Below are positions 5,417 through 22,397 of a stretch of DNA of 32,865 nt, piece after piece. The position numbers and the translations under genes are program-made. The notes beneath the pieces are model-generated. The model had not been told where the DNA came from. It did not search any database and was given only the letters and a program-made list of their open reading frames with translations. Each line of letters begins with the position of its first letter. Position 1 is the first letter of the stretch. The stretch is from a virus, in IMG/VR virus record IMGVR_UViG_3300031963_000575, positions 1 through 32,865 of that record; one strand, 5' to 3'.

Positions 5417-6037
5417 ATGGCATTTCAATCAATTTGGTATTTCAGTGATCTACCAGAAGACGTAGTAGATATTATCGAACGAGATCTCACAGAAAAGTTC
5501 GAAGAGCAAATGGCGGACTCCCGACTGCACGGAGACGCACTCAATAAAGATAAACGAAACTCACAAAATGCTTGGATCCCTACCACACATTGGGTTGGTG
5601 GATTCGTATGGCATTACATTCAAAGAGCAAACCGTGAGAACTTCCTCTATGACTTGCACTGTATTGATGGAGAATCAATGCAGTTTACAAAGTATGAAGA
5701 GGGACAGTTTTATGGTTGGCATAATGACGCAGGACTTGCAACTCAATACAAACCCGTAAGTGTTGGTAATCGTCAAGAAGGTCTTGCACAAGACTTCCTG
5801 AATGAGAATGTTGAACTTGTACGGAAACTTTCTTTCGTGGTTCAGTTGAGCGACCCCGATGATTATGAAGGTGGAAACCTGCAACTTCTTGATGAAGCAG
5901 GTAATAGTTATATTGCACCTCGTAAGCGTGGCACTGTAATCCTGTTTGATTCTCGCACACAGCACAGAGTTCTTAAAGTTACGAAAGGAACCCGTAAATC
6001 CCTTGTTGGATGGACGGTTGGCAAACGCTGGAAGTGA
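5417..6037 (+). CDS. 2-oxoglutarate/Fe(II)-dependent dioxygenase, PKHD-hydroxylase-like
   Basis: 206 aa. The double-stranded beta-helix metal site is visible: H102-x-D104 in FYGWHNDAG, distal H183 in TQHRV, and R193 in GTRKSLVGW, which normally binds the 2-oxoglutarate carboxylate. EGGNLQL before the distal His and the GTRKSL ending resemble PKHD-type (PiuC-like) hydroxylases. Enzymes of this fold hydroxylate protein side chains or small molecules; the substrate is unknown. It is the first gene behind a consensus sigma70 promoter and lies 8 nt upstream of a second oxygenase. The location between late fibre blocks but with an early-type promoter is unusual. Confidence 0.85.
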   Translation: MAFQSIWYFSDLPEDVVDIIERDLTEKFEEQMADSRLHGDALNKDKRNSQNAWIPTTHWVGGFVWHYIQRANRENFLYDLHCIDGESMQFTKYEEGQFYGWHNDAGLATQYKPVSVGNRQEGLAQDFLNENVELVRKLSFVVQLSDPDDYEGGNLQLLDEAGNSYIAPRKRGTVILFDSRTQHRVLKVTKGTRKSLVGWTVGKRWK

Positions 6038-6774: not shown

Positions 6775-6819
6775 CCTAAATATAAGTGCCTGGGTTGGTG
6801 ACACATTTCAGGTAGAATG

Positions 6820-6839
6820 GGGCGCTCTGGTGCCCTTTT
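6820..6839 (+). terminator. Intrinsic terminator downstream of the oxygenase pair
   Basis: GGGCGC-TCTG-GTGCCC, a 6-bp stem including one G-U pair, followed by TTTT. Confidence 0.65.
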
Positions 6840-6843
6840 CTTG

Positions 6844-6851
6844 CATAAATA
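6844..6851 (+). promoter_or_regulatory. Late promoter motif CATAAATA
   Basis: CATAAATA 33 nt upstream of the endonuclease ATG and 4 nt before the 3' arm of the inverted repeat. Confidence 0.65.
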
Positions 6852-6876
6852 GTACGTCACCAACCAAAGAGCAGTT

Positions 6877-7668
6877 ATGAACTACCTAAGGACTTACTGT
6901 AACCTTATACGAAACGCAGAGAAAAGAGGTTACAACAAAAGAAATGTGAAAATGTATGTGGAAGGACATCACGTTTTTCCAAGATCTCTTTATGGGCAGA
7001 CAACAGAAGGGAACAAAAGGATTGTATATTTGACTGCCAGAGAACATTATATTGCTCACTCTCTATTAGAAAAAGCATTTATCAAAAGGTATGGAGAAAA
7101 GCATCCAAAAACAATAAAGATGACTCACGCTTTTTGGAAAATGAATCATCATAAAAGTGGTGATAAAGAATATTATTGCAACTCACGTCTTTATGAAGGA
7201 TTAAAAATAAGAGTTGGTAATGCTGTTGGTGATAGGTGTCGTGGTGTGAAATCCAAAAAAGAACACGTTGATAAGATGCGAAAAACAAAGTTTGTTTATG
7301 AATATTTGATTACAGATCCAAATGGTAAAGAATATATTACTCAAAGTTTGAAAAGTTTTTGTTTAGAACATAACTTACACAACCCTACTATGTGTTATGT
7401 TTGTATGGGAAAGAGAAATCATTATAAAGGTTGGACTGCTAAAATAACAAATACGATTAGACCAAACTTGATTATGAGCGATGAGCAAAGGGAGTTATGC
7501 CGAAAAGCAAGATTGAAAACTTATTATTTCTTATCGCCAGATAATAATATTGTAAAAGTTGATGATATTGATGAACATTGTAAAGATTTTGGATTGAGTA
7601 AAAGACAGATGCAAAGATTATCAAGATTTGAAGTAGATCATCATCGTGGTTGGAGATTGCCAGTATGA
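6877..7668 (+). CDS. Free-standing HNH homing endonuclease
   Basis: 263 aa. Residues 29-67 carry the HNH core: EGHHVFPRSLYG (H31, H32), NKRIVYLTAREHYIAH (N46, H57, H61), in the form typical of phage homing endonucleases. The C-terminal half has two related DNA-binding-like repeats, SLKSFCLEHNL...HYKGW (~157-186) and DIDEHCKDFGL...HHRGW (~230-259), resembling NUMOD-type helix-turn-helix modules. Such enzymes cut phage DNA lacking the gene and promote its spread. It separates two oxygenase genes from a third oxygenase-like gene, and its stop overlaps the ATG of that gene, which suggests clean insertion between genes. Its leader is discussed separately. Confidence 0.85.
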   Translation: MNYLRTYCNLIRNAEKRGYNKRNVKMYVEGHHVFPRSLYGQTTEGNKRIVYLTAREHYIAHSLLEKAFIKRYGEKHPKTIKMTHAFWKMNHHKSGDKEYYCNSRLYEGLKIRVGNAVGDRCRGVKSKKEHVDKMRKTKFVYEYLITDPNGKEYITQSLKSFCLEHNLHNPTMCYVCMGKRNHYKGWTAKITNTIRPNLIMSDEQRELCRKARLKTYYFLSPDNNIVKVDDIDEHCKDFGLSKRQMQRLSRFEVDHHRGWRLPV

Positions 7669-8219
7669 AAGCACCACTCTTTGAATATCCATCATACCAA
7701 TACCAAATAGACGACTGGGACTTTAAGCGCCGTGGACTTCTCAACAGAATCAACTCTCAAAAGTTTGTAAGAACCACTCTTCAAACTTTTGAGACTGATC
7801 GCCAAACAAATAAAAAGTCATACCTACATTACTTCCAAGACCTCATCAGACCTCAACTGTTTGAGTTCTGTCAGGAAGCACAAGTAACTTGTAGTATGAC
7901 TGATTGTTGGGCAGTGAGATATAAACAAGGAGATCATCAGACAGTTCACAACCATAAAAGTTGGGGATTCTCTGGTGTTCTTTATGTGGAGTATGATTCG
8001 AAACATCATACTCCTACTTGCTTTGTAGCACCTTGGCAAGATCCGAGAACTGATACAACAACTCTTGCACATCCACAAGATGTAAAAGAAGGAACACTGT
8101 TTATTGTTCCTTCTTATACTTTACACTTCGTTCATCCCAATCAATCGAGAAAACAAAGAACAATCATTGCGTTTGATTTACTTCCTAAACTTCCAGACCA
8201 TCAAGCAATAAATAGTTGA
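7665..8219 (+). CDS. Putative 2OG-Fe(II) oxygenase-fold protein with H-x-H site
   Basis: 184 aa from the ATG in the ATGA overlap with the endonuclease stop; an upstream TTG is possible but less likely. The pattern HNHKSWGFSGVLYVEY (H95, H97), EGTLFIVPSYTLHFVHP (H154) and RTIIAFDL (R165) matches the oxygenase subfamily with H-x-H-x(n)-SG-YV ... G-lifps-x-x-H ... R. The canonical H-x-D/E is not present: the third motif position is H97, so the metal site is atypical or the protein has another function. Related in pattern to the gene at 27373. Confidence 0.7.
   Translation: MKAPLFEYPSYQYQIDDWDFKRRGLLNRINSQKFVRTTLQTFETDRQTNKKSYLHYFQDLIRPQLFEFCQEAQVTCSMTDCWAVRYKQGDHQTVHNHKSWGFSGVLYVEYDSKHHTPTCFVAPWQDPRTDTTTLAHPQDVKEGTLFIVPSYTLHFVHPNQSRKQRTIIAFDLLPKLPDHQAINS
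8208..8214 (+). promoter_or_regulatory. Late promoter motif ATAAATA
   Basis: ATAAATA at the end of the oxygenase-like gene, 20 nt upstream of the ATG at 8235. Confidence 0.5.
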
Positions 8220-8234
8220 AAATCATTTGTAAAG

Positions 8235-8489
8235 ATGGCATACTTTATAAAGAAAGTTCAAAGTATTCAAGGAAATCAACAGGTCATTTATTATCAAGGT
8301 GATAAGCGTTGGTCAACTAACTTTGATGATCGTAAACTTTATTCACTAAAAAGTGAGGCAACCACTGAACTCTACGAGTTTGGTGGTTCTGTTGTAAAGA
8401 ACGAAGGATATAATCCAAATCCAATTGATGCCGATGGTGATGGAATGGTTCAGGAAGGAACAGAATTTGAAAGATCAGTTGGCACTTGA
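8235..8489 (+). CDS. Small conserved-type phage protein with DxDxDG motif
   Basis: 84 aa, function unknown. Beta-rich N-terminal half (KKVQSIQGNQQVIYYQGDKRW). Residues 61-76 read PNPIDADGDGMVQEGT, a D65-x-D67-x-D69-G70 calcium-loop-like pattern with V72 in the hydrophobic position but no acid at loop position 12. This motif recurs in marine T4-like phage proteins. Preceded by ATAAATA and followed by its own late motif at 8494, so probably late and possibly virion-associated; calcium binding is inference. Confidence 0.65.
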   Translation: MAYFIKKVQSIQGNQQVIYYQGDKRWSTNFDDRKLYSLKSEATTELYEFGGSVVKNEGYNPNPIDADGDGMVQEGTEFERSVGT

Positions 8490-8493
8490 ATAG

Positions 8494-8501
8494 CATAAAT
8501 A
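8494..8501 (+). promoter_or_regulatory. Late promoter motif CATAAATA
   Basis: CATAAATA followed by ACTGAAAAG, 21 nt before the ATG at 8523. Confidence 0.7.
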
Positions 8502-8522
8502 ACTGAAAAGTAGCGTAAAGAG

Positions 8523-9215
8523 ATGTCGCAATTAAGTGTTGATTCCATAACTGGTAGAGTATCAGGAACAGCACCGTCTTTGCCAAACGGTGCTGTTGTT
8601 ACTGGTGTTGTAACTGCCACAACTTTTAGTGGTAATGTTACTGGAAACCTCACTGGCAATGTCACAGGTAACTTAACAGGAACTGCATCAGCAGCAACAC
8701 TGGCAACCAATGCACAAGGACTAACTGGTTCTCCAAGTATTTCTGTTTCTGGTGTTAATAACACTGGTATTTCAACACTAACTGATACAAGACTTTCATC
8801 TATTGCGGATAAAACCACTCTGGTCAGTGGTAATACTGTAAGTCTTGTCTACAATACTGGTGGTGGTAATGTTGCGATCTGCACAAACCCAACAGGACCT
8901 ATCACACTCAATGTAACTGGTATTCCAACTGATAGTTCTTTTGATAATCGTGCAATCTCATTTGCGGTCATTGTTCAGCAAGGTGCAACTGCTTATGGTT
9001 GCACAAACGTAACTCTGAATGGTGTTGCTTTTGGTGCAAATGCAACTGCTGGATTGCAGACTCATATTGCATATGTTTCGGGAACGGTAGCAACGGCAAG
9101 CACCACTGGTTATGATGTCTTTAACTTTACTGGTATTAATACTGTTGGTTCTGCGGCATCAACACTTAACTACAAGTTACTCTCAAACGTAAGCGGCGGA
9201 TATAGAAGGTACTGA
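8523..9215 (+). CDS. Fibre protein, C-terminal subtype 1, with GN(V/L)T repeats
   Basis: 230 aa. N-terminus MSQLSVDSITGRVSGTAPSL followed by NGAVVTGVVTATTFSG, then the four-residue repeat GNVTGNLTGNVTGNLTG (residues ~37-53), QGLTGSPSISVSG and a C-terminal domain from TRLSSIADKTTLVSGNTVSL to VSGGYRRY. That domain is the subtype also seen at 3 (truncated gene), 19764 and 25014. It is a compact fibre: anchor, short repetitive shaft, tip. A glycine-rich partner starts 3 nt after its stop. Confidence 0.75.
   Translation: MSQLSVDSITGRVSGTAPSLPNGAVVTGVVTATTFSGNVTGNLTGNVTGNLTGTASAATLATNAQGLTGSPSISVSGVNNTGISTLTDTRLSSIADKTTLVSGNTVSLVYNTGGGNVAICTNPTGPITLNVTGIPTDSSFDNRAISFAVIVQQGATAYGCTNVTLNGVAFGANATAGLQTHIAYVSGTVATASTTGYDVFNFTGINTVGSAASTLNYKLLSNVSGGYRRY
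8631..8681 (+). repeat. 12-nt tandem repeat encoding G-N-(V/L)-T units
   Basis: Four degenerate 12-nt units plus a terminal Gly codon. The same unit is expanded at 25131-25244 in a paralogous gene. Confidence 0.75.
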
Positions 9216-9218
9216 TTT

Positions 9219-11096
9219 ATGGCTCCTATCGTTACTTCTCTGGCATCGATTGTAAAACAGTTTGGTATTGGTGCTGTTATTTCTGCTGGTTCTGCTGGCG
9301 GACCTATCACTGCAACAGGTGGTGTGATTAGTGATTACGAAGTTTCTGGAACATTTTATAGAGCACATATCTTCACTTCATCTGGAGCTCTCACAGTTAC
9401 TTCTGGATCAGGCACTGTTGAATACCTTGTTGTTGCTGGAGGTGGTGGTGGAGGTGGAACAGATGCTGATGATACTGGTGGTGGTGGAGCCGGTGGATTT
9501 AAAACATCTACAAGTTCACTATCACTTGGATCTTATCCAATAGTTATTGGTGCTGGTGGGGCTGGAGGAGTTGCAGTCCAAGGATCTAATGGTGGAGATA
9601 CTTCTCTATTTTCCTTTACAGCAGCTGGCGGCGGCGGTGGTGGTGCTGGCCCTCCGTCCGCTCCTATCCGACCTGGAATTTCCGGAGGATCTGGTGGTGG
9701 AGGAGGAGTATCTGGAAGTGCAGGAAGTGGAAATGTGTATTCACCAACCTCTCCACTGTTTCCTTCACCCGCTCCCGGACAAGGAAATAATGGTGGTGGT
9801 GGATCTGGTCAAGGATCTATTGGCGGCGGCGGTGGTGGTGCAGGAGAAACAGGAAATACAGATGGTCAAGGATATGGTGGAGATGGTTCTTCAAATGTTT
9901 ATGCGTATGGACCCACAAATCCAATAATGTATGCTGGAGGTGGTGGAGGTGGAAGATTTGGTGGTGCTGGGGCCCCAGGAGGTGATGGAGGCGGAGGTGC
10001 TGGTGGACCGACTGCAAATAGTAATGGTATTTCTGGAACTTATTCTACCGGAGGTGGTGGAGGTGGAGCTAGTAGAAATCCTGGTGGAGGCACTTGGATA
10101 GGTGGTTCTGGTGGTTCGGGAATCGTAATCGTCCGTTATGCTCTTCCTACATCTTCTGGAACCGCAAAAGCAACTGGTGGTGCTATCAGTTATTATAATG
10201 GTAAGACCATTCATACCTTTACGAGTTCTGGAACTTTCCAAACCACAACAGCAATCCCAACAGCAGAAGTATTCATCGTAGCAGGTGGTGGTTCTGGTGG
10301 TCCGGACACTAACCCAACTAACTTTGCATCAGGTGGCGGTGGTGGTGCAGGTGGTGTTGTTTATCATCCTGGATTAGGATTTCCATCACCAGCAACTTAT
10401 ACGATTACTGTTGGTGCCGGTGGTGTTGCTCCAAGAGGATCTAGTCCAACCAACAGAGGAACTGACGGTGCTGATACCACAGTAACGCATCCTTCTGGAC
10501 CATATGTTGCATATCGTGGTGGTGCTGGTGGAGCAGGTTGGCCTGGTACAGGATCTAATACTGGCGGTTCTTCTGGTGGTGCGGGAGATGGCGGAACAGC
10601 AGCGACAGCAGCACAACCGGCAACAAATCCAGGAGCAATAGAGTATGGAAACGCTGGTGGTTCTGGTGGTAGTGGTTCTCCTGGATATCCAGCAGGTGGA
10701 GGAGGTGGAGCCGGCGGTGTCGGTGGTGCAGGACCTTCTCCTTCATCTCCAATAGCGGGAGGTTTTGGTGGTATAGGACTGCAAGCACCACCATCATTTA
10801 GAAATCCTGCATCAACAGTAGGAGCTCCTGGTCCAGGTGGAGGTGGTTATTGGTTTGCTGGTGGTGGTGGTGGTGGTGTCTGGATTGGACCAAACGCGGG
10901 AGGTATTGGTGGTGGACCTGGTGGTCCTTTTGCCGGAGCAGGAAATGGTGGTATGGGACCTAATGGACAAGATGGTGCAAATGCATTAGAGAACACAGGT
11001 TCTGGCGGCGGTGGAGCAACTGGTGCTCCTGGACCAGCTCTACGGTCTGGTGGCAAAGGTGGTTCCGGTATCGTTCTTATTGCATACCCAACATAA
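9219..11096 (+). CDS. Glycine-rich putative adhesin with two tandem glycine-rich domains
   Basis: 625 aa. The N-terminal peptide MAPIVTSLASIVKQFGIG resembles the starts of the other partner genes. Domain 1 (~28-308) runs from ITATGGVISDYEVSG through VEYLVVAGGGGGG and ends GGSGIVIVRYAL. Domain 2 (~312-625) runs from AKATGGAISYYNGKTIHTF through VFIVAGGGSGG and ends GGKGGSGIVLIAYPT. Each domain has a beta-rich start, a conserved VVAGGGGG strand, long Gly stretches with short variable inserts, and a final hydrophobic strand. The two-domain layout is shared with the gene at 14907. Function by analogy is receptor binding at a fibre tip through loops held by polyglycine helices. It follows its fibre partner by 3 nt. 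Confidence 0.8.
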   Translation: MAPIVTSLASIVKQFGIGAVISAGSAGGPITATGGVISDYEVSGTFYRAHIFTSSGALTVTSGSGTVEYLVVAGGGGGGGTDADDTGGGGAGGFKTSTSSLSLGSYPIVIGAGGAGGVAVQGSNGGDTSLFSFTAAGGGGGGAGPPSAPIRPGISGGSGGGGGVSGSAGSGNVYSPTSPLFPSPAPGQGNNGGGGSGQGSIGGGGGGAGETGNTDGQGYGGDGSSNVYAYGPTNPIMYAGGGGGGRFGGAGAPGGDGGGGAGGPTANSNGISGTYSTGGGGGGASRNPGGGTWIGGSGGSGIVIVRYALPTSSGTAKATGGAISYYNGKTIHTFTSSGTFQTTTAIPTAEVFIVAGGGSGGPDTNPTNFASGGGGGAGGVVYHPGLGFPSPATYTITVGAGGVAPRGSSPTNRGTDGADTTVTHPSGPYVAYRGGAGGAGWPGTGSNTGGSSGGAGDGGTAATAAQPATNPGAIEYGNAGGSGGSGSPGYPAGGGGGAGGVGGAGPSPSSPIAGGFGGIGLQAPPSFRNPASTVGAPGPGGGGYWFAGGGGGGVWIGPNAGGIGGGPGGPFAGAGNGGMGPNGQDGANALENTGSGGGGATGAPGPALRSGGKGGSGIVLIAYPT

Positions 11097-11099
11097 ATA
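11092..11099 (+). promoter_or_regulatory. Late promoter motif CATAAATA containing upstream stop codon
   Basis: The TAA within CA-TAA-ATA is the stop codon of the glycine-rich gene. Leader continues TCTAAAAACTCCCA, then ATG at 11114; nearly identical leaders occur at 13389 and 22407. Confidence 0.75.
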
Positions 11100-11113
11100 T
11101 CTAAAAACTCCCA

Positions 11114-11377
11114 ATGACAAGAGCAAGAGATACATCAAGAGTTCAAATCGGTATCAATACTGCTGTCAGTGGTGCTGATGAGTTTACTTATGTACCTAAA
11201 ACTGCACTCATTGTAAGTGAAAACATAGACTTCAATACATCAAACTCTGGTGCAGAAGACTCTATTATTACTCTTGAAAGAACACATATGAATGTTAGTT
11301 CTGGTGTTAGTGTTACAATAGGCAGTGGTAAGCATTTGATTATTAATCCTTCTAATTTACCACACACAGTTTCATAA
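11114..11377 (+). CDS. Small beta-rich virion-like protein
   Basis: 87 aa, function unknown. N-terminus MTRARDTSRVQIGINTAVSG; the remainder (FTYVPKTALIVSENIDFNTS, RTHMNVSSGVSVTIGSGKHL then IINPSNLPHTVS) resembles the beta-rung capping domains at 2732 and 3172, with the common SG-x-x-x-x-IGSG-x-x-L-x-I ending. Bracketed by late promoter motifs on both sides, so expressed late as its own unit. Confidence 0.6.
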   Translation: MTRARDTSRVQIGINTAVSGADEFTYVPKTALIVSENIDFNTSNSGAEDSIITLERTHMNVSSGVSVTIGSGKHLIINPSNLPHTVS

Positions 11378-11380
11378 ATA
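11373..11380 (+). promoter_or_regulatory. Late promoter motif CATAAATA containing upstream stop codon
   Basis: Stop TAA of the 11114 gene lies inside the motif; 20 nt to the ATG at 11401. Confidence 0.75.
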
Positions 11381-11400
11381 ACTAGAAAGTATAAGACAAG

Positions 11401-11865
11401 ATGTCAGAACTTAGAGTTGATAATATTGTAAGTGCAGACGGAACTGCGGCACCTGTCTATAGTCAGGGTCTGAATATTCCATCTGGAAAAACTCTGACAA
11501 ATAATGGTAACTTTGTTGTTGGTGGAGCAACTTCCATTGCTGGTGTTACAACCTTTTCTTCTGGCGCGAACATAACTGGTAACATTACGGTTACTGGTGG
11601 ATTAAGTGTAACTGGTTCTGCTAACTTTAATACTACTGGTATTATTACCACCGGACAATTAAATGTTACTAATTCTTTTAGTTTTCAAAGTGTAAATGCT
11701 AGTGGTGTTTCTACGATTGCTAATGTAAAAATAACTCCAGTTGGAACAGGTGCAACAGTTGGTTCTTCTGGAATTGTTACTTATTATGGTGATGGTTCAA
11801 ATCTAACAGGAATTGTCGCTTTTGATGCTGGCAAAGTTTATACTTATAATCACCTTTTCTCATAA
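11401..11865 (+). CDS. Short fibre-like protein
   Basis: 154 aa. Starts MSELRVDNIVSADGTAAPVY, the family start. The middle has TG-type repeats (GANITGNITVTGGLSVTGSA), and the end has GIVTYYGDGSNLTGIVAFDA, the GDGSNLTG motif that in other fibres precedes further domains. It lacks either recurrent C-terminal domain and ends shortly after the motif with GKVYTYNHLFS, so it may be a truncated fibre or a distinct short one. Own late promoter at 11373. Confidence 0.65.
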   Translation: MSELRVDNIVSADGTAAPVYSQGLNIPSGKTLTNNGNFVVGGATSIAGVTTFSSGANITGNITVTGGLSVTGSANFNTTGIITTGQLNVTNSFSFQSVNASGVSTIANVKITPVGTGATVGSSGIVTYYGDGSNLTGIVAFDAGKVYTYNHLFS

Positions 11866-11868
11866 ATA
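11861..11868 (+). promoter_or_regulatory. Late promoter motif CATAAATA containing upstream stop codon
   Basis: Stop TAA of the 11401 gene lies inside the motif; 15 nt to the ATG at 11884. Confidence 0.75.
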
Positions 11869-11883
11869 ATCAAAAAAGATAAG

Positions 11884-12258
11884 ATGGCAAATCCAAATCT
11901 TCTTGGTATAGGGACAGTAATTGGTCTTTCTACAAATGTCGGTATTGCAACAACAGCTCACACTGTTTTTTTATCTAATGCGGCATCAAGTGGTAAGCTC
12001 TTAAAAATAAACAATCTTACTGCAATAAATGTCAATGGATCAACAGCAGTTAATGTGACAATTAAATATCATAATCAAGCTGCCGGAGCAGGAACATCTA
12101 CTTCGTTAGCATATCTTATTCCTGTTCCAGCAGCAGCATCTCTTATTGTTGTTGGTAAGGAAAATCCAGTTTATCTTGAAGAAAATAGGTCTCTTGGTGT
12201 AACCGCTGGTAGTGCAAATGGTATTGATATTTACTGCTCTTATGATGAAATTCTATAA
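11884..12258 (+). CDS. Small conserved virion protein, beta-sandwich-like
   Basis: 124 aa. MANPNLLGIGTVIGLSTNVG, then HTVFLSNAASSGKLLKINNL, AVNVTIKYHNQ, AYLIPVPAAASLIVVGKENP, VYLEENRSLGVTAGSANGID and IYCSYDEIL. The order of strands, the IPVPA-type turn and the late x-L-E-x-x-x-x-L segment match the genes at 2036 and 14484. It is followed after 28 nt by a glycine-rich gene, as is 14484, which suggests a second kind of partner pair. Precise position in the virion is unknown. Confidence 0.65.
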   Translation: MANPNLLGIGTVIGLSTNVGIATTAHTVFLSNAASSGKLLKINNLTAINVNGSTAVNVTIKYHNQAAGAGTSTSLAYLIPVPAAASLIVVGKENPVYLEENRSLGVTAGSANGIDIYCSYDEIL

Positions 12259-12286
12259 TAATTTTTAAAGTTTTTGGGAAAGTTAA

Positions 12287-13393
12287 ATGTCTAAAAGAAT
12301 TGCGAGTTACATTGGTCCAGCACCTCAATCTGATTCTCCCGGAAACAAAGGTATTTGGGATTTAATTCAGCAAGAGTATATTCAACAAGATGGAAACTGG
12401 CCAATTATTTTAAGTCCTGTAACTGCAACTGGTGGAACTATTATACCATCTGTTTCTTCTGGAAATGGATATGTTTATCATGTTTTTATTGGCAATGGTC
12501 CTCACGTATTTACAAAAACAAATCCAGGATCTGGATATATAGAATTACTGATGGTTGCTGGTGGTGGAGGTGCTGGTGCTCCTCTTGGTGCAGGCGGAGG
12601 TGCAGGAGGAATTGTTCATCATACACAATATCTTGTTGCTAGTGGTTCTCCATATCCAGTATCTGTCGGAGGTGGTGGATCTGGAACAACTACAACAACC
12701 CCTGCTACTGGACCTAGTGGTGGTCGTGGATCTGATACCACATTTGGTGTAAATTCAACTCCAGGTTACTTACTTGCAAAGGGTGGTGGAGGAGGGGGAA
12801 ATTTTGATGCTTCTCCAGTACCAGGATTTACTATTGATGGTGGTAGTGGTGGTGGATTGAATAGTTATTCACCATATGTTAATGGACTTTCTGTAGCACT
12901 GCAACCGACACAAAATACCGCATATATCGGAAAGACTGGTTTTAACCAATATGGAAATATTGGTGGAAATGCTCAACCAGGCGATCCATTTTCTAACAGT
13001 GGAGGTGGAGCTGGTGGTGTAGGGTCTGGTGGAGTATCATCTGCTGCTGGTGGAGCTGGACAACCATTTCCAGGTTTTCCTGCACCTATTATTGCTCCTG
13101 CTATACCTTCTCCAGAAAGAACGGCATGGACATCCGCAGTGGGACCAACTGGTCTTTTTGGTGGAGGAGGAGGTGCTGGCGGTAGATCCACCGGTGGATC
13201 TGGGGGACCTGGTGGAGGAGGACCTGGTGGACCCGGAACTGGCGGTGGTGCTGTATCAGCACAAGGTGGAAATGGGAACAACGGTGTAGTTTATACCGGA
13301 GGTGGCGGAGGTGGAGGTCAATATACTACATTTACTGCTCCAACAGCTAACGGAGGATCTGGAATAGTTATTGTTCGATACTTGGCATCATAA
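12287..13393 (+). CDS. Glycine-rich virion protein, single domain
   Basis: 368 aa. The N-terminus (MSKRIASYIGPAPQSDSPGN, GIWDLIQQEYIQQDGNWP) differs from the M-x-PI-start peptides and probably attaches to a different partner. From residue ~44 there is one glycine-rich domain: VTATGGTIIPS, GYIELLMVAGGGGAGA, many GGG blocks, a Pro-rich loop FPAPIIAPAIPSPE, and the final strand GGSGIVIVRYLAS. The same Pro-rich loop is recognisable at 20551 (FPGPIIGPAIPAPE) and in part at 14907. Likely an adhesin or tip component by analogy. Confidence 0.75.
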   Translation: MSKRIASYIGPAPQSDSPGNKGIWDLIQQEYIQQDGNWPIILSPVTATGGTIIPSVSSGNGYVYHVFIGNGPHVFTKTNPGSGYIELLMVAGGGGAGAPLGAGGGAGGIVHHTQYLVASGSPYPVSVGGGGSGTTTTTPATGPSGGRGSDTTFGVNSTPGYLLAKGGGGGGNFDASPVPGFTIDGGSGGGLNSYSPYVNGLSVALQPTQNTAYIGKTGFNQYGNIGGNAQPGDPFSNSGGGAGGVGSGGVSSAAGGAGQPFPGFPAPIIAPAIPSPERTAWTSAVGPTGLFGGGGGAGGRSTGGSGGPGGGGPGGPGTGGGAVSAQGGNGNNGVVYTGGGGGGGQYTTFTAPTANGGSGIVIVRYLAS

Positions 13394-13396
13394 ATA
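13389..13396 (+). promoter_or_regulatory. Late promoter motif CATAAATA containing upstream stop codon
   Basis: Stop TAA of the glycine-rich gene is inside the motif; leader TCTAAAAACCCTCA, then ATG at 13411. Confidence 0.75.
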
Positions 13397-13410
13397 TCTA
13401 AAAACCCTCA

Positions 13411-13812
13411 ATGGCATATATCGGAAGACCCCAAGCAACGGGCCCCTATCTCAAACTTGATGATATCTCTGATGAGTTTGATGGAAGTAAGGTAACATTT
13501 AATCTCACGCTTGGTGGTTCTCCATTTTTTACATCAAACGCTTATACTCTACTTCTTTCACTTGATGGTGTTATTCAAGAACCTATCAAGTCTTTTGTTG
13601 TTCAAGAAAATCAAATCACGTTTGCTTCGCCACCTGATGCAACATCAAATTTTTATTGTATAGTTCTTGGAACTACATTAAATACGACTGCACTTACAAG
13701 TTTAACGATTGGAACTAGAACTAGTGCAGCAACACTTGCATTAAATGGAGAGCAACTTGGAGTCCTTCGAAGAGACGGAACAAAGGGATTCATCTCTTTC
13801 AATGTAGCATAA
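13411..13812 (+). CDS. Fibre N-terminal-like virion protein
   Basis: 133 aa. Starts MAYIGRPQATGPYLKLDDIS, then DEFDGSKVTFNLTLGG, LLLSLDGVIQEPIKSFVVQE, QITFASPPDATSNFYCIVLG. The YIG-x-x-x-x-TG ... LDDIS start and the S-x-D/N-GV-I-Q-x-P strand are shared with the 511-aa protein at 18198. In marine T4-like phages this fold forms the N-terminal part of long fibres; here it stands almost alone, followed by ALNGEQLGVLRRDGTKGFIS. It may be a short fibre or an attachment subunit. Confidence 0.65.
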   Translation: MAYIGRPQATGPYLKLDDISDEFDGSKVTFNLTLGGSPFFTSNAYTLLLSLDGVIQEPIKSFVVQENQITFASPPDATSNFYCIVLGTTLNTTALTSLTIGTRTSAATLALNGEQLGVLRRDGTKGFISFNVA

Positions 13813-13815
13813 ATA
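13808..13815 (+). promoter_or_regulatory. Late promoter motif CATAAATA containing upstream stop codon
   Basis: Stop TAA of the 13411 gene is inside the motif; 22 nt to the ATG at 13838. Confidence 0.75.
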
Positions 13816-13837
13816 ATCCAAAGACTATTCAGATATA

Positions 13838-14461
13838 ATGGCGAATAGATATCCGCTGATTTATAATCCAAGTGCTGGACAACTTCAAGAACTCCAAGTA
13901 GGAGACAATCTTGATCTTGGGGGTTCTGGGATTAGTAGTGTAGGAAATATAAACTCTTCCGGAATTATTACCGCCACTACATTTAGCGGTGGATTCAGTG
14001 GTACATTCAGTGGAAATGCAACTGGTTTAACTGGATCACCTAGTATCACAGTTACTGGTCTTTCTGTTTCTGGTATCTCAACATTTGCTCAAGATATTAA
14101 TCTTGGTGATAATGTTAAAGCAAACTTTGGTGATAGTGATGATTTAAGAATCTATCATGATGGAACCAATAGTTATGTGGAGGATACTGGAGCAGGAGAT
14201 CTATATCTTTCTGGTTCCACTAACGTCATTATTCAACACCATTCAACTGGTGAAACAATGGCGAAGTTTGTTGGCAATGGTTCCGCCGAACTTTATCATG
14301 ATAACAGTAAGAAGTTTGAAACTTTGGGAGTTGGTGCGACAGTTACTGGAACTATGTACGCAACAAGTTTTGTTGGATCTGGCGCTAATCTGACAAACCT
14401 TCCAGTGTCTGGTGGTGGAGGTGGAGATTTTAATGAACTTGACGCCGCACTGTTTAACTAA
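13838..14461 (+). CDS. Tail-fibre-like protein with LGDN-x-K-x-x-FGDSDDL repeat
   Basis: 207 aa. MANRYPLIYNPSAGQLQELQ, then SGIITATTFSGGFSGTFSGN, LTGSPSITVTGLSVSGISTF, and the marine-phage fibre repeat INLGDNVKANFGDSDDLRIY, HDGTNSYVEDTGAGDLYLSG, followed by SAELYHDNSKKFETLGVGAT and SFVGSGANLTNLPVSGGGGG. The modules are common to many cyanophage fibre proteins. It ends shortly after the Gly run. Late expressed from its own motif; no glycine-rich partner follows directly. Confidence 0.75.
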   Translation: MANRYPLIYNPSAGQLQELQVGDNLDLGGSGISSVGNINSSGIITATTFSGGFSGTFSGNATGLTGSPSITVTGLSVSGISTFAQDINLGDNVKANFGDSDDLRIYHDGTNSYVEDTGAGDLYLSGSTNVIIQHHSTGETMAKFVGNGSAELYHDNSKKFETLGVGATVTGTMYATSFVGSGANLTNLPVSGGGGGDFNELDAALFN

Positions 14462-14464
14462 ATA
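14458..14464 (+). promoter_or_regulatory. Late promoter motif CTAAATA containing upstream stop codon
   Basis: Stop TAA of the 13838 gene is inside the motif; 19 nt to the ATG at 14484. Confidence 0.7.
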
Positions 14465-14483
14465 ACTTAAAAAGTATATACCG

Positions 14484-14891
14484 ATGGCACTCAAAAGAAC
14501 TAAATTATTAGGTATTCAGGCAGTTACTGGCATTAATACAGTAGGTATTTTAACTGTAGGAACCACTGCAACTGCTGGTGGTGTTGGTATTGCATCAACC
14601 ACCTATCTTCGTGGTGTGGTAATGCACAACACTGGACTTTCAACTGCTACTTCATCACTCTACGTTTACCCAAGTAGCGTTACGGTTTCTGGTGTTGGGC
14701 AGACGGCATATAGATTGGCAAGAGTAGATCTAAATGCAAACGAAACTTTCTTCTTTGAAATGAACTATCCACTGGTTCTTACAAACCAAGAAAAGATTGT
14801 TGTAGAAGTTACACAACCAGCGAACGTGGTTGGAGGAGCAGGTATTGGTAGTGCTATCAACTATCAAATTCTCGGTGATACAGACATCTGA
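14484..14891 (+). CDS. Small conserved virion protein, beta-sandwich-like
   Basis: 135 aa. MALKRTKLLGIQAVTGINTV, then TYLRGVVMHNTGLSTATSSL, YVYPSSVTVSGVGQTAYRLA, NETFFFEMNYPLVLTNQEKI, VVEVTQPANVVGGAGIGSAI and NYQILGDTDI. Strand pattern parallels 2036 and 11884 (long strands, an L-x-x-x-x-K-I-x-V segment and a final strand). A glycine-rich gene follows after 15 nt, as it does for 11884. Confidence 0.65.
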   Translation: MALKRTKLLGIQAVTGINTVGILTVGTTATAGGVGIASTTYLRGVVMHNTGLSTATSSLYVYPSSVTVSGVGQTAYRLARVDLNANETFFFEMNYPLVLTNQEKIVVEVTQPANVVGGAGIGSAINYQILGDTDI

Positions 14892-14906
14892 TAAGAGGTA
14901 AGTATA

Positions 14907-16898
14907 ATGGGTGCAAGAAGTTCTAAGAATACAACGCAAAATAATAGAAGCGACGGGCACTTATTAGAGTACTTCCGTAAATCTTTTATTCGTGGTGGTG
15001 GTGCAAATGCTGGACCAAATATTCCTCCTCCACCACCACTTATCGCTGCAACTGGTGGAGATATTAATGGATTAGAACCAGGAAATAATTATGCATATCA
15101 CACATTCACCTCAACTGTTGGACCTAGCACTTTTATCATAGAATCCATATCACCACAACATCCAGGTTTTATTGATGTTTTAGTTGTTGCAGGTGGTGGA
15201 GGTGGGGGAAAAACTGCAGTTCCTGTAGGAAATGGTAGCGGTGGCGGCGGTGCTGGTGGTGTTGTTAGGCACGCAACATATAATGTATCATCCGGACCAT
15301 ATCCACTTACAATTCCGGTTTCTGTTGGAGGTGGAGGTGCTGGTGGAATTAGTTCTCCTAATATTGGTCAGAATGGTTCGGATAGTACTTTTGGTGGATT
15401 AACTGCAAAAGGTGGTGGTGGTGGTGGATATTTTGGAATTGCTGGAAGTCCTGGTGGTTCTGGTGGAGGCGGTGGTGGATATGGAGGTAATTATTCAAAT
15501 GTTTTAGCTACTGGAACTCAACCATCACAAACACATCCAACAGCACCATCAGGATGGATAAATTATGGAAGTCCCGGTGGAGCTCCAATTGGACCAAATC
15601 CGGGAGATGGATCTGGCGGCGGTGGTGCCGCAGAGGCTGGTGGATCGCATAATGACAGTGCTAATGCAGCGCCAGTATCTCAAGGATTTGGTGGAAATGG
15701 AATTCAATTTTCAGAATTTAATGGACCACTGATTGGTGTACCTGCTCTAGCACCCCATAGTGGATATTATGGTGGTGGCGGAGGTGGAGAAAATTATCCA
15801 GGAAATGCACCATTTGGTGGCGGTGCTGGTGGTGGTGGGGAAAGTCCCCAACCATACAATGGAGATCAATATACTGGAGCAGGAGGAGCTTCTGGTGCTG
15901 ATGGTATAGTAGCTGGAAATGGTGGATCTGGTATTGTAGTAGTAAGATATCTAAAATCAATCTCATCTATAAAAGCAACAGGAGGTATTGTAAGTTTTTA
16001 TAATAATAAAACAATTCATACTTTCTTGGCAACAGGAACTTTTACAAATGTATCAGGTTCTCCTTTAAATATTGAATACATGATTGTTGCTGGTGGAGGT
16101 GGAGGAGGAGTTGGTAATACTGGCATAGGCGCAGGTGGTGGTGGTGGAGCTGGTGGAATAGTTTATAATCCAGCATTTACTGTTTCTACAGGATCTCCAA
16201 ATGCGTTATCTATTACTGTAGGTGCTGGAGGTGGAGCGGAATCTACTGGATCTGATACAACTTTATCTTATCCTGGACCAACAACAGTAACAGCAAAAGG
16301 TGGTGGTAAAGGTGGTGGTAGTGCTGGAAATGCGTCAACTGGTGGTTCTGGTGGAGGATCTCACTACACTGCTGTTCCTGGACCAGCATCTCAACCATCA
16401 CAAAACCCAGGAATTCCTGGAATAATACAATATGGAAATAATGGCGGAAATTCTGGACCTTATGAAGGTGCTGGTGGAGGTGGTGCGGGAGCAGTTGGTT
16501 CTAATGGAACTTCTCCAAATATAAGTAGTGGTGCTGGTGGATATGGAATACAGGCACCACCTTCTTTTAGAGATCCAGGTTCTGCTTATGGCGATCCAGG
16601 AGGATATGGTGGAGCGGCCGCACCAACACCAGGTGGATTCTGGTTTGGTGGCGGAGGCGGCGGCAGTGGATATCCGACGAGCGTAGTAGGATCTGCTGGT
16701 GGTAGCGGAGGTGGTGGGGCTGGTCAAACAACACCAGGAGTTGTTAGATCTTATGGAAGAAGTGGTCAAGATGGAAAACTTCACACAGGAGGAGGTGGAG
16801 GAGGTGGAAATGGATGGAGAGCTTCTACAGACACACCAGTATCTGGAAATGGTGGTAAAGGTGGTTCTGGTATCGTTCTCATCGCATATCCTTCATAA
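14907..16898 (+). CDS. Glycine-rich putative adhesin with two tandem glycine-rich domains
   Basis: 663 aa, the longest protein here. The N-terminus (MGARSSKNTTQNNRSDGHLL, EYFRKSFIRGGG) is unlike the other glycine-rich genes and may mark a different attachment. Domain 1 (~44-350): LIAATGGDINGLEPGNNYAY, FIDVLVVAGGGGGG, end GGSGIVVVRYLKS. Domain 2 (~356-663): IKATGGIVSFYNNKTIHTFL, EYMIVAGGGGGGV, end GGKGGSGIVLIAYPS. Domain 2 is clearly related to domain 2 of the gene at 9219 (IQAPPSFRDP versus LQAPPSFRNP; FWFGGGGGG versus YWFAGGGGG). RBS AAGAGG overlaps the upstream end. Confidence 0.8.
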   Translation: MGARSSKNTTQNNRSDGHLLEYFRKSFIRGGGANAGPNIPPPPPLIAATGGDINGLEPGNNYAYHTFTSTVGPSTFIIESISPQHPGFIDVLVVAGGGGGGKTAVPVGNGSGGGGAGGVVRHATYNVSSGPYPLTIPVSVGGGGAGGISSPNIGQNGSDSTFGGLTAKGGGGGGYFGIAGSPGGSGGGGGGYGGNYSNVLATGTQPSQTHPTAPSGWINYGSPGGAPIGPNPGDGSGGGGAAEAGGSHNDSANAAPVSQGFGGNGIQFSEFNGPLIGVPALAPHSGYYGGGGGGENYPGNAPFGGGAGGGGESPQPYNGDQYTGAGGASGADGIVAGNGGSGIVVVRYLKSISSIKATGGIVSFYNNKTIHTFLATGTFTNVSGSPLNIEYMIVAGGGGGGVGNTGIGAGGGGGAGGIVYNPAFTVSTGSPNALSITVGAGGGAESTGSDTTLSYPGPTTVTAKGGGKGGGSAGNASTGGSGGGSHYTAVPGPASQPSQNPGIPGIIQYGNNGGNSGPYEGAGGGGAGAVGSNGTSPNISSGAGGYGIQAPPSFRDPGSAYGDPGGYGGAAAPTPGGFWFGGGGGGSGYPTSVVGSAGGSGGGGAGQTTPGVVRSYGRSGQDGKLHTGGGGGGGNGWRASTDTPVSGNGGKGGSGIVLIAYPS

Positions 16899-16915
16899 AA
16901 TGCTTAACAACTCCA

Positions 16916-16968
16916 ATAAATATTCATATCTGACTTTTCAGGATACTAAACTTATAGTATAATAAATA
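16916..16968 (+). promoter_or_regulatory. Promoter region: two ATAAATA motifs and a TATAATAAATA composite
   Basis: ATAAATA at 16916-16922 and at 16962-16968. The second overlaps TATAAT (16958-16963), giving TATAATAAATA, which could serve both as a sigma70 -10 and as a late promoter. A poor -35 (TTTTCA, 16935-16940) lies 17 nt upstream. The same composite occurs at 24975. Confidence 0.55.
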
Positions 16969-17002
16969 CTTTCACAGTCATAATCATTCATATAAGAAAA
17001 CG

Positions 17003-17413
17003 ATGGCACATTTTGCACAACTAGATGAAAACAACGTTGTTACTCAAGTCATTGTTGTGAGTAACGAAGATACTTCTGATTCTAATGGAGTAGAAGTAGA
17101 AGAAATCGGAGTTGCATTTTGTAAGAAACTCCTAGGTGCTGATACCAACTGGAAGCAAACCTCATACAATAACAATATGAGAGTTCGCTATGCAGGTATT
17201 GGTTACTCTTACAATGAAACTCTTGATGCTTTCATTCCACCACAACCATTTGCTTCGTGGATTCTGAATGAAGAAACTGCTGATTGGGAATCACCAGTAG
17301 GACCTGCTCCTGCACTCACCGAGGCGGAGATTGAAGCACGTTCATTTTATCGTTGGGATGAAGAAGCAGGTGCTTGGGATCTCTTTACTCCCGAACCACC
17401 AGCAGGTGAATGA
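17003..17413 (+). CDS. Conserved cyanophage-type protein of unknown function
   Basis: 136 aa. MAHFAQLDENNVVTQVIVVS, then IGVAFCKKLLGADTNWKQTS, RVRYAGIGYSYNETLDAFIP, PQPFASWILNEETADWESPV and a Trp-rich end FYRWDEEAGAWDLFTPEPP. This layout (M-AHFA-x-LDENN-x-V-x-Q-V-V at the start, F-C-x-x-L-x-x-x-x-x-WKQTS, YAGIGY, IPPQP-x-x-SW-x-LN) is a familiar one in T4-like cyanophages, generally annotated as hypothetical or virion-associated. It ends at a strong terminator, so it is the last gene of the second structural block. Confidence 0.75.
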   Translation: MAHFAQLDENNVVTQVIVVSNEDTSDSNGVEVEEIGVAFCKKLLGADTNWKQTSYNNNMRVRYAGIGYSYNETLDAFIPPQPFASWILNEETADWESPVGPAPALTEAEIEARSFYRWDEEAGAWDLFTPEPPAGE

Positions 17414-17419
17414 TAAACT

Positions 17420-17443
17420 GAGGGGTTCTACCCCTCTTTTTTT
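17420..17443 (+). terminator. Strong intrinsic terminator
   Basis: GAGGGG-TTCTA-CCCCTC followed by seven T, 7 nt after the stop codon of the 17003 gene. Confidence 0.9.
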
Positions 17444-17485
17444 ATGATAAATATTAATACCTGATGGACCGCAATCTTATCAGGA

Positions 17486-17509
17486 GGAGGGTGTAAGTCC
17501 CTCCTTTTT
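17486..17509 (+). terminator. Intrinsic terminator within the endonuclease leader
   Basis: GGAGGG-TGTAAGT-CCCTCC followed by TTTTT, just upstream of TATAAATA. Confidence 0.8.
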
Positions 17510-17511
17510 AA

Positions 17512-17519
17512 TATAAATA
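17512..17519 (+). promoter_or_regulatory. Perfect T4-type late promoter TATAAATA
   Basis: Exact match to TATAAATA, 33 nt before the endonuclease ATG. Confidence 0.8.
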
Positions 17520-17544
17520 CATATGCGGTCCTAATGGTAAAGAA

Positions 17545-18171
17545 ATGTCTAATAAGAAGTATCATTATACCTATTATTCTTATGAAGAGTGGGGTAGGGG
17601 GTATATTGGGTGTAGAAGTTGCAATTGCTTACCGGAACAAGATATAAACTATTTTGGATCATTTCACGATAAAACATTTAATCCCACTCAAAAAGTAATT
17701 ATCGAAACGTTTAAAACAAGAAAGGATGCAATTCGTGCAGAAATAAAGTTGCATAATTTTTATGATATTGCTCTTAACTCACATTTTGCTAATAGGGCAA
17801 AACAAACTTCGACTAAATTTACGAGAGAGGGTGCAGTTACATCTCAAGAAACAAAAGAAAAAATGAGTAAAGTTAAAAAAGGTAAATTTTTTCTAAATGA
17901 AAGTGCAAGAGAGAAGATTAGAAGAGCAAGAGCACTTCAAGTTTTTACAGAAGAAAGTTCAATAAAAAGAAAACAAACACTTAAAAAACTGGATTTAGTT
18001 TGGATGTATGACCCAAAAACAAAAAAGAATCATAGAATAATGAGAATAAAAGTTCAAGAAAAACTATCTGAAGGACTTGTATTGGGACGTATTTGCAATA
18101 TTACAGAGGAAACAAGAAAAAAATTAAGTGATGCTGCCAATAAAAGATGGTCTAAACAAACCAATAAATAA
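17545..18171 (+). CDS. Free-standing GIY-YIG homing endonuclease
   Basis: 208 aa. N-terminal GIY-YIG-like core: HYTYYSYEEWGRGYIGCRSC with R24, then KTRKDAIRAEIKLHNFYDIA with the likely metal-binding E66. Lys-rich C-terminal half with NUMOD3-like motifs: SQETKEKMSKVKKGKF (~100-115), SAREKIRRARALQ and TEETRKKLSDAANKRW. The enzyme family nicks or cuts DNA lacking the gene. It sits between a terminated structural block and a long fibre gene and shares its leader architecture with the unrelated HNH enzyme at 6877. AT-rich and lysine-rich compared with the surrounding fibre genes. Confidence 0.85.
   Translation: MSNKKYHYTYYSYEEWGRGYIGCRSCNCLPEQDINYFGSFHDKTFNPTQKVIIETFKTRKDAIRAEIKLHNFYDIALNSHFANRAKQTSTKFTREGAVTSQETKEKMSKVKKGKFFLNESAREKIRRARALQVFTEESSIKRKQTLKKLDLVWMYDPKTKKNHRIMRIKVQEKLSEGLVLGRICNITEETRKKLSDAANKRWSKQTNK
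18164..18170 (+). promoter_or_regulatory. Late promoter motif ATAAATA overlapping endonuclease stop
   Basis: ATAAATA ends within the stop codon of the endonuclease, 27 nt before the ATG at 18198. Confidence 0.6.
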
Positions 18172-21599: not shown

Positions 21600-22397
21600 A
21601 TGAGTTGTAAAAAGTATTATTTTCTTTCGGGTATGCCGAGAGCAGGAAACACTATTTTGTCATGTATTTTAAATCAAAATAAAAAAATAGGTGTATCTGG
21701 AAATAGTTTAGTATCAGAAATTCTTTTTAAACTTGATAGTTGGAAAGATACTGATGTAGCGTATAAAAATTTTCCAGATGAAAAATCTTATGATTCTGTG
21801 ATGGAAAGTATAATATCTTCATATTATTCTAAATGGAATGTTGATTATGTTATTGATAGATCTGCTTGGGGAACTCCTGCTAATTTTTCTTTACTTCAAA
21901 AATATTGCCCAAATGAAATAAAAATAGTTTGTCTTGTTAGAAATACTCTTGATATTTTTAAATCTTGGGTAGACTGGTCTGATAAAAATCCAAATAACTT
22001 TATTAATAGAAATACTAATAATGGAACTGTGGAACAAAAATTTGAATTTATTTTTAATCCTCATGGGCAGTTGGTTCAGCAGATATTATCCATCAATACA
22101 CTTAACAAAATAGATCCACAAAATAATATTCATATACTGATTGGCTATGATGATTTTGTGAACAATCCTCAAAAAGAAGTGGAAAGAATATATGATTTTT
22201 TAAATATCCCGCATTACAGTCATAACTATAAAAAAATAAAACAGTTAAATATTAATGGAGTTGAATACTCTGATAATTTTCTTGGTAATAATCTTCACAA
22301 AATTGACACAAAGGGTATTCGAAAAAGGAAATATAAAGTAAATGTTTCAGATCAAATATATCATAGATGTTTAGAATTTGATTTGTTGATTAGGTAG
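21600..22397 (+). CDS. PAPS-dependent sulfotransferase-like protein
   Basis: 265 aa. Residues 8-21 (FLSGMPRAGNTILS) match the 5'-phosphosulfate-binding loop of sulfotransferases (x-x-G-x-P-R-S/A-G-T/N-T), and IKIVCLVRNTLDIFKSWVDW has R114 and S122 in the R-x7-S spacing of the 3'-phosphate-binding motif. Length fits the family. The enzyme would transfer sulfate from PAPS to a hydroxyl on a protein or glycan; the acceptor is unknown. The gene is AT-rich, poor in Gly and rich in Asn/Lys/Ile, unlike its fibre-gene neighbours, and lies in the middle of the fibre cluster, suggesting recent acquisition. It has an extended -10 rather than a late promoter. Confidence 0.8.
   Translation: MSCKKYYFLSGMPRAGNTILSCILNQNKKIGVSGNSLVSEILFKLDSWKDTDVAYKNFPDEKSYDSVMESIISSYYSKWNVDYVIDRSAWGTPANFSLLQKYCPNEIKIVCLVRNTLDIFKSWVDWSDKNPNNFINRNTNNGTVEQKFEFIFNPHGQLVQQILSINTLNKIDPQNNIHILIGYDDFVNNPQKEVERIYDFLNIPHYSHNYKKIKQLNINGVEYSDNFLGNNLHKIDTKGIRKRKYKVNVSDQIYHRCLEFDLLIR

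Follow-up and report, generated by a model that had tools for sequence, protein, structure and literature searches.

Why should two unrelated homing endonuclease genes of a single virus carry the same structured leader, and what does this leader do? The question is raised by the DNA stretch analyzed here, which consists of positions 1 to 32,865 of IMG/VR virus record IMGVR_UViG_3300031963_000575 and is called the window below (32,865 nucleotides, nt). The initial annotation of the window had described the pair of leaders and suggested that they might play a role in the control of expression. The pair is real, the family to which it belongs is far larger than reported (about 210 distinct elements), and a role in expression control is very probable in view of the sequences. 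The mechanism that we favor, and consider fairly likely, is that a short antisense RNA made from a first promoter pairs with the 5′ leader of the nuclease messenger RNA (mRNA) made from a second promoter, lowering the production of the nuclease. At the sequence level, this reading is supported by the layout of the leaders, the RNA-level covariation, the conserved promoter motifs, the edges of the pairing and, at one site, the mobility of the cassette as one unit; what we infer from the sequences is the existence of the small RNA as a terminated transcript, its action in trans and its repressive effect.

The elements occur in the same order in both leaders: a putative late promoter (promoter 1), a hairpin carrying the first arm in its loop, a terminator-like hairpin, a second putative late promoter (promoter 2), the second arm and the ATG. 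In both cases, the distance to the ATG is 21 nt from the start of the 3′ arm and 33 nt from that of the second 8-mer motif, and the positions, order and spacings given by the initial annotation were all found in the window. In the first cassette, which like the second lies on the + strand, promoter 1 (CTAAATA, a late-like motif with one mismatch to ATAAATA) is located at 6776–6782, with a predicted transcription start (+1) at G6788; the motif and its 6-nt gap to the hairpin are kept in the relatives. The predicted antisense RNA, of about 55 nt, would extend from 6788 to 6842 and consist of hairpin P1 (6789–6812; CCTG at 6789–6792 pairs with CAGG at 6809–6812), with arm P2a, GGTTGGTGAC, in the loop (6793–6802), and then a terminator-like hairpin (6820–6825/6830–6835) with a T-run (6820–6839 in all). 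Promoter 2 (ATAAATA, 6845–6851) is followed by arm P2b, GTCACCAACC (6856–6865), where the endonuclease mRNA is predicted to start, and by the gene of an HNH-type homing endonuclease of 263 amino acids (6877–7668). The second cassette begins with promoter 1 (ATAAATA, 17447–17453; predicted +1 at A17459), from which an antisense RNA of about 51 nt (17459–17509) would be made. It includes hairpin P1 (17460–17484), in which CCTGAT (17460–17465) pairs with ATCAGG (17479–17484), arm P2a, GGACCGCA (17466–17473), and the terminator hairpin (17485–17491/17499–17505) with its T-run (17485–17509 in all). Promoter 2 (ATAAATA, 17513–17519), arm P2b, TGCGGTCC (17524–17531, with the predicted mRNA +1 at G17525), and the gene of a GIY-YIG-type homing endonuclease of 208 amino acids with a NUMOD3-like motif (17545–18171, ATG at 17545) complete the cassette. 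As previously proposed, the arms differ between the two leaders and stay complementary, and this covariation is upheld across the relatives.

Three relatives of the GIY-YIG protein of the window show the same layout, one (L005) with the arms of the window and two (L006 and L007) with other arms. A first scan of 2.9 million viral contigs, using a pattern which required both late motifs and CCTG/CAGG and did not require the arms to be complementary, gave at least 120 stretches. Among the matches listed, there were 126 places and 106 distinct matches (identical elements are collapsed in all the distinct counts, and the counts of places or matches include overlapping loci of one record), and 95 of these 106 pair at 8–9 of 9 positions, one at 7 and ten at fewer. 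Further leave-one-out scans, which overlap one another, did not require complementary arms either. Upon dropping the requirement for promoter 1, 52 of the 53 distinct matches were found to pair at 8–9 of 9 positions, and a late motif precedes the hairpin in all 52 (36 exact ATAAATA and 15 one-mismatch motifs, all at 6 nt, and one shifted by 1 nt). All 12 distinct matches obtained without the hairpin requirement pair, and their P1 is either CCTG/CAGG or one of the compensated forms CCTA/TAGG, TCTG/CAGA and CCTT/AAGG. When neither promoter 2 nor arm 2 was required, 46 of the 48 distinct matches had both, the exceptions being one contig end and one orphan promoter-hairpin-terminator unit (L037:7542; record G007:32136), the partner arm of which is absent after the next late motif and elsewhere in its 59,655-base record.

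All the scans together yielded 334 places, 210 distinct elements, 78 distinct 9-nt arms and 295 loci. Fourteen loci from cellular genome contigs were excluded from the 210-element set and from later counts, and L008, which duplicates part of the window, from the pairing-by-position and later counts; at least three of the 210 elements (L097 at 5055, L279 at 3382 and L295 at 11639) have no open reading frame (ORF), are probably due to chance and were kept in the counts. In the cellular genomes, taken as a negative control (14 stretches), none of the 15 pattern matches pairs at 8 or more positions. The arms taken alone do not exceed chance in one window, where a bare stem-plus-arm descriptor finds about 4.8 places per shuffled strand. 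The whole layout, at a score of at least 28, gave 155 matches in the first 134 loci and the window (overlapping loci included) versus none in one shuffled copy of each. A hairpin-blind descriptor found 191 places, 145 of them distinct, in 1.26 Mb of loci versus one in three shuffled copies; since this descriptor, which also defined the 210-element set, requires 8 of 9 pairs, the pairing percentages obtained with it cannot serve as independent evidence, contrary to those from the scans in which complementary arms were not required.

The complementarity of the arms is maintained across the family. In 117 distinct elements, arm pairing amounts to 97–100% over the 6th to 13th nucleotides after promoter 2, and the mean over the 6th to 14th is 98%, as compared with 57% when the arms were dealt anew (maximum 60% in 200 deals). 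When 13 leaders of equal length (12 distinct) were aligned, 100% of the cells were paired, which is partly by construction because the descriptor had selected these leaders, and 7 of the 13 pairs had changed on both sides; the covariation score is 0.509, versus 0.157 upon shuffling and at most 0.072 upon sliding. These leaders are 13 of the 15 sharing one layout, the other two, which have the 3′ strand of the hairpin in another column, having been omitted, and a 19-leader alignment in which two registers were mixed was discarded. The imperfect core pairs consist of 28 G-U, 3 A-C and 18 other cells, or 17, 2 and 12 distinct contexts, respectively (G-U versus A-C, p = 0.0007). Since the descriptor scores G-U and A-C alike, it cannot have produced this excess of G-U; a G-U pair is better tolerated than A-C in RNA of this strand, an inverted repeat acting as DNA gives no reason to expect the excess, and the pairing is therefore, on the evidence of these substitutions, one between RNAs. 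Upon cofolding, the cognate arms gave −14.1 kcal/mol and the non-cognate ones −2.8 kcal/mol, the cognate value being the lower one in all 100 elements sampled from 204.

The edges of this pairing were compared with the starts of transcription predicted from the geometry of T4 late promoters. The T4 late box, of 8 bp, spans −13 to −6 (PMC2988020), so that +1 should be the 6th nucleotide after ATAAATA. A box resembling TATAAATA is present at both promoters, and the starts given here follow the T4 numbering set out in that source (PMC2988020). In a set found without requiring it, a purine occupies the 6th position behind the motif in 119 of 123 cases at promoter 1 and 117 of 123 at promoter 2, mostly after a T. 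Pairing sets in at the 6th nucleotide after promoter 2 (97%); it is 79% one nucleotide earlier, nearly all of one A-T type, and 26% two nucleotides earlier. At the other end, the +1 base of the small RNA and the mRNA base following AGAG occur in the combinations A-T (75), A-C (0), G-C (49), G-T (19), A-A (4) and G-A (9), 19 elements having no AGAG, and the association is stronger for this base (Cramer V 0.76) than for the four preceding ones (0.05–0.35). Where a leader begins with GCTT, and not with RCCTG, an AAGC is present in the mRNA leader in all but one of the elements (12 of 13); among the CCTG-type leaders, only 2 of 175 have it. In 92 in-register elements, the +1 pair forms in 80, the number expected upon redealing being 73 (at most 78 over 2000 deals), and is of the Watson-Crick type in 68, versus 50 expected (maximum 60); the duplex ends 3–6 nt before the ATG. 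Both predicted starts of transcription are thus located, by T4 late-promoter geometry, at edges of the pairing, and an ATAAATA motif whose predicted +1 coincides with the edge of P2b supports the putative late promoter which the initial annotation had placed just upstream of the endonuclease.

The steps of the favored mechanism would then be as follows. Late promoter 1 would give an antisense RNA of about 50–60 nt, composed of a small hairpin and an intrinsic terminator, the antisense sequence being the 5′ strand of the hairpin and its loop. Late promoter 2, right after the terminator, would give the nuclease mRNA with its short leader, and the 5′ part of the small RNA would pair with the 5′ end of this mRNA over a core of about 9–13 nt. 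A weaker extension of this core would reach, in many elements, the first base of the small RNA, and would end a few nucleotides before the start codon. Full pairing would open the hairpin and cover the ribosome-binding region, blocking the loading of ribosomes, so that the nuclease would be held at a low level set by gene dose; as both promoters are of the late type, a logic of dose is likelier than one of early versus late expression. The predicted mRNA leaders are 16–24 nt long and the small-RNA units up to promoter 2 have a median length of 57 nt, and the minimum free energy of the inner region is −15.2 kcal/mol versus −5.7 kcal/mol upon shuffling, lower in 144 of 145 cases. Promoter 1, the hairpin and the terminator together look like a complete short-RNA gene. 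As the pairing can extend through the 5′ strand of the hairpin in most elements, the hairpin and the long duplex are mutually exclusive and no stable pseudoknot would form, contrary to the pseudoknot suggested in the initial annotation.

Several observations weigh against this mechanism. The T-runs are partly short: among 204 elements, 10 have no run of at least three T and 27 have only a run of three. The first base of the mRNA predicted in leader 1 of the window is a pyrimidine (T at the 6th nucleotide after promoter 2), unlike that of most relatives. The covariation at the 5′ end partly tracks leader lineages, the Fisher p value rising from 6e-23 to 1e-6 when each arm core is counted once, these associations carrying no tree correction; and of the 175 CCTG elements, the 92 mentioned above reach +1 with one bulge, 64 need 1–3 further nucleotides and 19 are those lacking AGAG. 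Arms residing in the same record are no more different from each other than random arms (77 distinct pairs in 58 records; one identical versus 1.9 expected; mean similarity P = 0.12; P = 0.07 in a smaller earlier set of 27 pairs), and there is consequently no clear sign of selection against cross-talk in trans. Lastly, six of the ten low-pairing matches of the first scan (L037, L040, L064, L115, L125 and L127) are leader-like and lack a complementary arm, the other four being unrelated sequence. Non-complementary arms had been named at the outset as a finding that would speak against the leader; they do occur, marginally, with six such units against 95 paired elements out of 106 among the matches listed, and the six (L125 being on the − strand) are apparently truncated or decayed. 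The copies L064, L115, L040, L125 and L127 may be useful for studying loss.

Pairing of the two arms within a single molecule would produce the same covariation, and the cofolding energies cannot distinguish between pairing in cis and in trans. The upstream arm might thus pair with the downstream one in read-through RNA and lower its translation, with the transcripts from promoter 2 escaping, as in the case of T4 I-TevI, SegB and Aeh1 mobE; T4-type precedents exist (PMC2988022), and a late promoter motif does lie between the arms. A T4-style structure in cis, silencing early transcripts, was what the initial annotation had suggested. We nevertheless think this unlikely: it leaves unexplained why the hairpin has a late promoter of its own in 52 of 52 paired elements, why a terminator-like hairpin separates the arms and why the association at the first base of the small RNA is stronger than at the preceding bases, and the core of P2b is upstream of the ribosome-binding region and does not contain it. 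The small RNA might also pair in trans with the opposite outcome, shielding the mRNA from decay dependent on its 5′ end and raising expression. The pairing does take in the very first predicted nucleotide of the mRNA; but the duplex continues to within 3–6 nt of the ATG in the 92 in-register elements, and the mRNA leader has little inhibitory structure which the small RNA could open (mean unpaired probability 0.53 when free and 0.59 with +1 to +11 bound, in 100 elements), which makes a protective role very unlikely.

Two further explanations would dispense with regulation by pairing between two transcripts. Phase switches offer examples of short inverted repeats on either side of a promoter, and such repeats can be perfected by template switching. 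With these precedents, the arms could be regarded as a DNA-level inverted repeat, either bordering an invertible promoter or matched by quasi-palindrome template switching; this is extremely improbable given the 28 G-U versus 3 A-C mismatches, a bias favored only by RNA of this strand, and the coincidence of the arm edges with the predicted transcription starts, and the existence of 78 arm versions means that there is no fixed recombination site. It is hardly more credible that the leader is a self-cleaving ribozyme with the topology of that of hepatitis delta virus (HDV), or some other catalytic pseudoknot: the strand order P1a-P2a-P1b-hairpin-P2b resembles a nested pseudoknot, but the leaders searched match no Rfam family at the gathering score and, judged by eye, lack a catalytic core. 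The HDV-like fold was itself rejected by eye for want of a P3 stem in the leaders inspected; the loop segment is moreover short (about 5 nt) and the arms extend into P1.

The genes located behind the antisense leader were examined in the window and then throughout the family. The first enzyme of the window is of the HNH type, based on matches to PHROG 655 and 2081, and a Pfam search of it gave no match; the second matches PHROG 314 (homing endonuclease), with NUMOD3 at 0.4 bit below the Pfam cut-off, and appears to be GIY-YIG-like from its N-terminal motif, judged by eye. The HNH and GIY-YIG assignments of the initial annotation thus agree with ours, the latter only by way of this motif, and its statement that unrelated homing endonucleases have one structured leader in common is strengthened by the GIY-YIG and several HNH types found behind it. 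Among the first 110 downstream proteins, 80 are matched by PHROG 314, 41 by PHROG 655 and 2 by TnpB-type transposase families. When the 197 downstream ORFs with 40 or more amino acids were grouped by N-terminal similarity, 179 fell into one single-linkage cluster, the members of which were not each checked individually, and 18 into 14 other groups. PHROGs scans of these 18 covered 16, at least one per group, and all those scanned match endonuclease or TnpB-transposase families except L188, a 43-amino acid fragment at a contig end; the match of L258 is weak and ranks below families of unknown function, and those of L070 and L213 have E values near 1e-4. Nearly all the downstream genes that can be assigned therefore seem, by homology, to be mobile nucleases of the GIY-YIG, several HNH, endonuclease VII-like and TnpB types. 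In L053 (−, 2500), L059 (−, 6610), L170 (−, 4718) and L190 (+, 1056), the endonuclease frame stops after 14–37 residues owing to a stop or a frameshift and the arms are still complementary; these are apparently recently broken copies.

The cassettes seem to be mobile in their turn. The genes on either side of the HNH cassette of the window have homologues in Synechococcus phage Bellamy that overlap at ATGA, which corresponds to an empty site, while in the window promoter 1 starts just past the stop of the upstream gene, and the stop of the endonuclease gene overlaps the start of the downstream gene (ATGA). Taken together, these junctions indicate that the whole segment from promoter 1 to the stop codon moved as one unit, and the HNH cassette thus appears to have been inserted with promoter 1 included; a clean empty site was sought for the GIY-YIG cassette and none was obtained. 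Of the 37 pairs of endonucleases at least 90% identical, 33 share the arm core and four, all belonging to one HNH family and 94–97% identical, differ at 5 or more of its 9 positions. The arm in front of the TnpB gene of L054 differs by at most one base from those of several GIY-YIG leaders. The fact that near-identical nucleases may have different arms, and that a TnpB gene has a GIY-YIG-like arm, suggests that leader and gene are exchangeable as modules. TnpB-type OrfB_IS605 proteins of 398 amino acids are encoded behind the homing-endonuclease leader in L054 (3958–5151) and L062 (8052–9245), and, judging from these two loci, an RNA-guided-type nuclease gene has acquired the leader module.

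Photo_RC (psbA/psbD) was found above the cut-off in 9 of 12 large records, and the contigs are therefore mainly those of cyanophages. Blast searches of three leaders against phage records gave only one clear match, the cultured Synechococcus phage S-SRM01, which carries four cassettes with four different arms, near positions 17954, 48434, 55961 and 192422 of its record. In one of these (MW015081, 192466; L130:2947), the annotated start of the endonuclease falls within the leader, and translation probably begins in fact at the ATG located about 20 nt past the predicted mRNA start. With a relaxed pattern, no cassette was detected in T4, Aeh1, P-SSM2, Syn9, Sf-CH5, S-PM2, RN05-S, ACG-2014f, S-SM2 or Bellamy; as only three of the four S-SRM01 cassettes are recovered by this pattern, the absence in other phages is not absolute. 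The stretches upstream of the endonuclease relatives in S-PM2, Sf-CH5, RN05-S and ACG-2014f likewise contain no such leader. Endonucleases devoid of the element had been put forward in the initial annotation as evidence that would count against it; many related ones do lack it, which shows only that the leader is not universal. The leader-bearing loci also contain matches at the Rfam gathering score to abiF RNA (L125:3723–3759), PhotoRC-II RNA (L117:5802–5893) and wcaG RNA (L130:1908–2005), and many clustered tRNA genes (L045:95–2967). Three 2OG-Fe(II) oxygenase-like proteins and one sulfotransferase are encoded in the window (5417–6037, 7665–8219, 27373–27936 and 21600–22397, respectively; Pfam), in a region around glycine-rich repetitive proteins.

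The closest known logic is, by analogy, that of the C4 RNA of phages P1 and P7. C4 lies upstream of its target on the same strand, shares its transcript and is processed from it. It is a 77-nt RNA that blocks the translation of the ant mRNA by pairing around its ribosome-binding site (RBS) through complementary segments, which are probably looped (PMC12197685). The leaders resemble it in having a looped segment, upstream and on the same strand, complementary to the start region of the downstream mRNA, and from this architecture the leader is predicted to act, like C4, through a separate RNA in trans. They differ from it by their two late promoter motifs with a terminator in between, their mobile-nuclease targets and their dozens of arm specificities. 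No Rfam match at the gathering score, the C4 family included, was obtained in the window or over the leaders of 18 relative loci out of about 130, and an E-value search with leader 2, the only leader searched in this way, gave only unrelated matches below the threshold.

With I-TevI, I-TevII, I-TevIII, SegB and Aeh1 mobE, the translation of which is controlled by a late promoter and an RBS-sequestering hairpin (PMC2988022), the leaders share the control of translation by RNA pairing near a late promoter. Promoter 2, from which transcription is predicted to start at the edge of P2b, would moreover keep the 5′ arm out of late transcripts, as in these genes. The T4-type structures are presented in that source as single cis structures in read-through RNA initiated upstream, whereas the leaders have a full promoter-to-terminator unit ahead of a second promoter and their pairing partner is the mRNA 5′ end. 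The RBS was not found inside a hairpin arm in the leaders: the core of P2b extends from mRNA +1 to about +9 to +13, upstream of the RBS, which only the weaker extension of the pairing reaches. Cyanophage S-PM2 likewise has a homing endonuclease gene with an antisense RNA linked to it, but this RNA, CfrI, is about 225 nt long, lies on the opposite strand and connects psbA with one endonuclease gene (PMC2984593), whereas the RNA predicted here has about 50–60 nt and lies on the same strand.

In type I toxin-antitoxin systems, a small RNA is located beside the gene of a harmful protein and is antisense to the leader of its mRNA. The present cassettes have this adjacency and this antisense relation, but their target is, by homology, a phage homing nuclease, and there is no sign of addiction; the tandem RNA repeats of type III systems were not evident by eye in the leaders inspected. 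Among the matches listed, the titles and abstract beginnings of open-licence PubMed Central papers contain no description of the two-promoter antisense-leader arrangement.

According to a statement in a 2010 review on T4, no small trans-acting regulatory RNA from this phage had been functionally characterized, and related genomes might suggest candidates (PMC3014915). The leader cassette is such a candidate, with its strong covariation, its some 200 distinct copies and its occurrence in the cultured phage S-SRM01, and it provides a collection of short antisense specificities diversified by nature. These specificities might even define incompatibility or immunity groups, in which a resident element silences an incoming or sister element having the same arm, new arms being favored. 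This idea is quite unlikely to be correct; if true, it would account for the 78 arm types, for the differences in the whole arm between some 94–97% identical nucleases and for the presence of one leader module on GIY-YIG, HNH, endonuclease VII-like and TnpB nucleases. The antisense leader offers a simple answer to the question of how selfish nucleases of unrelated families may restrain themselves inside a phage: this class of mobile genes seems to bring along its own built-in brake.

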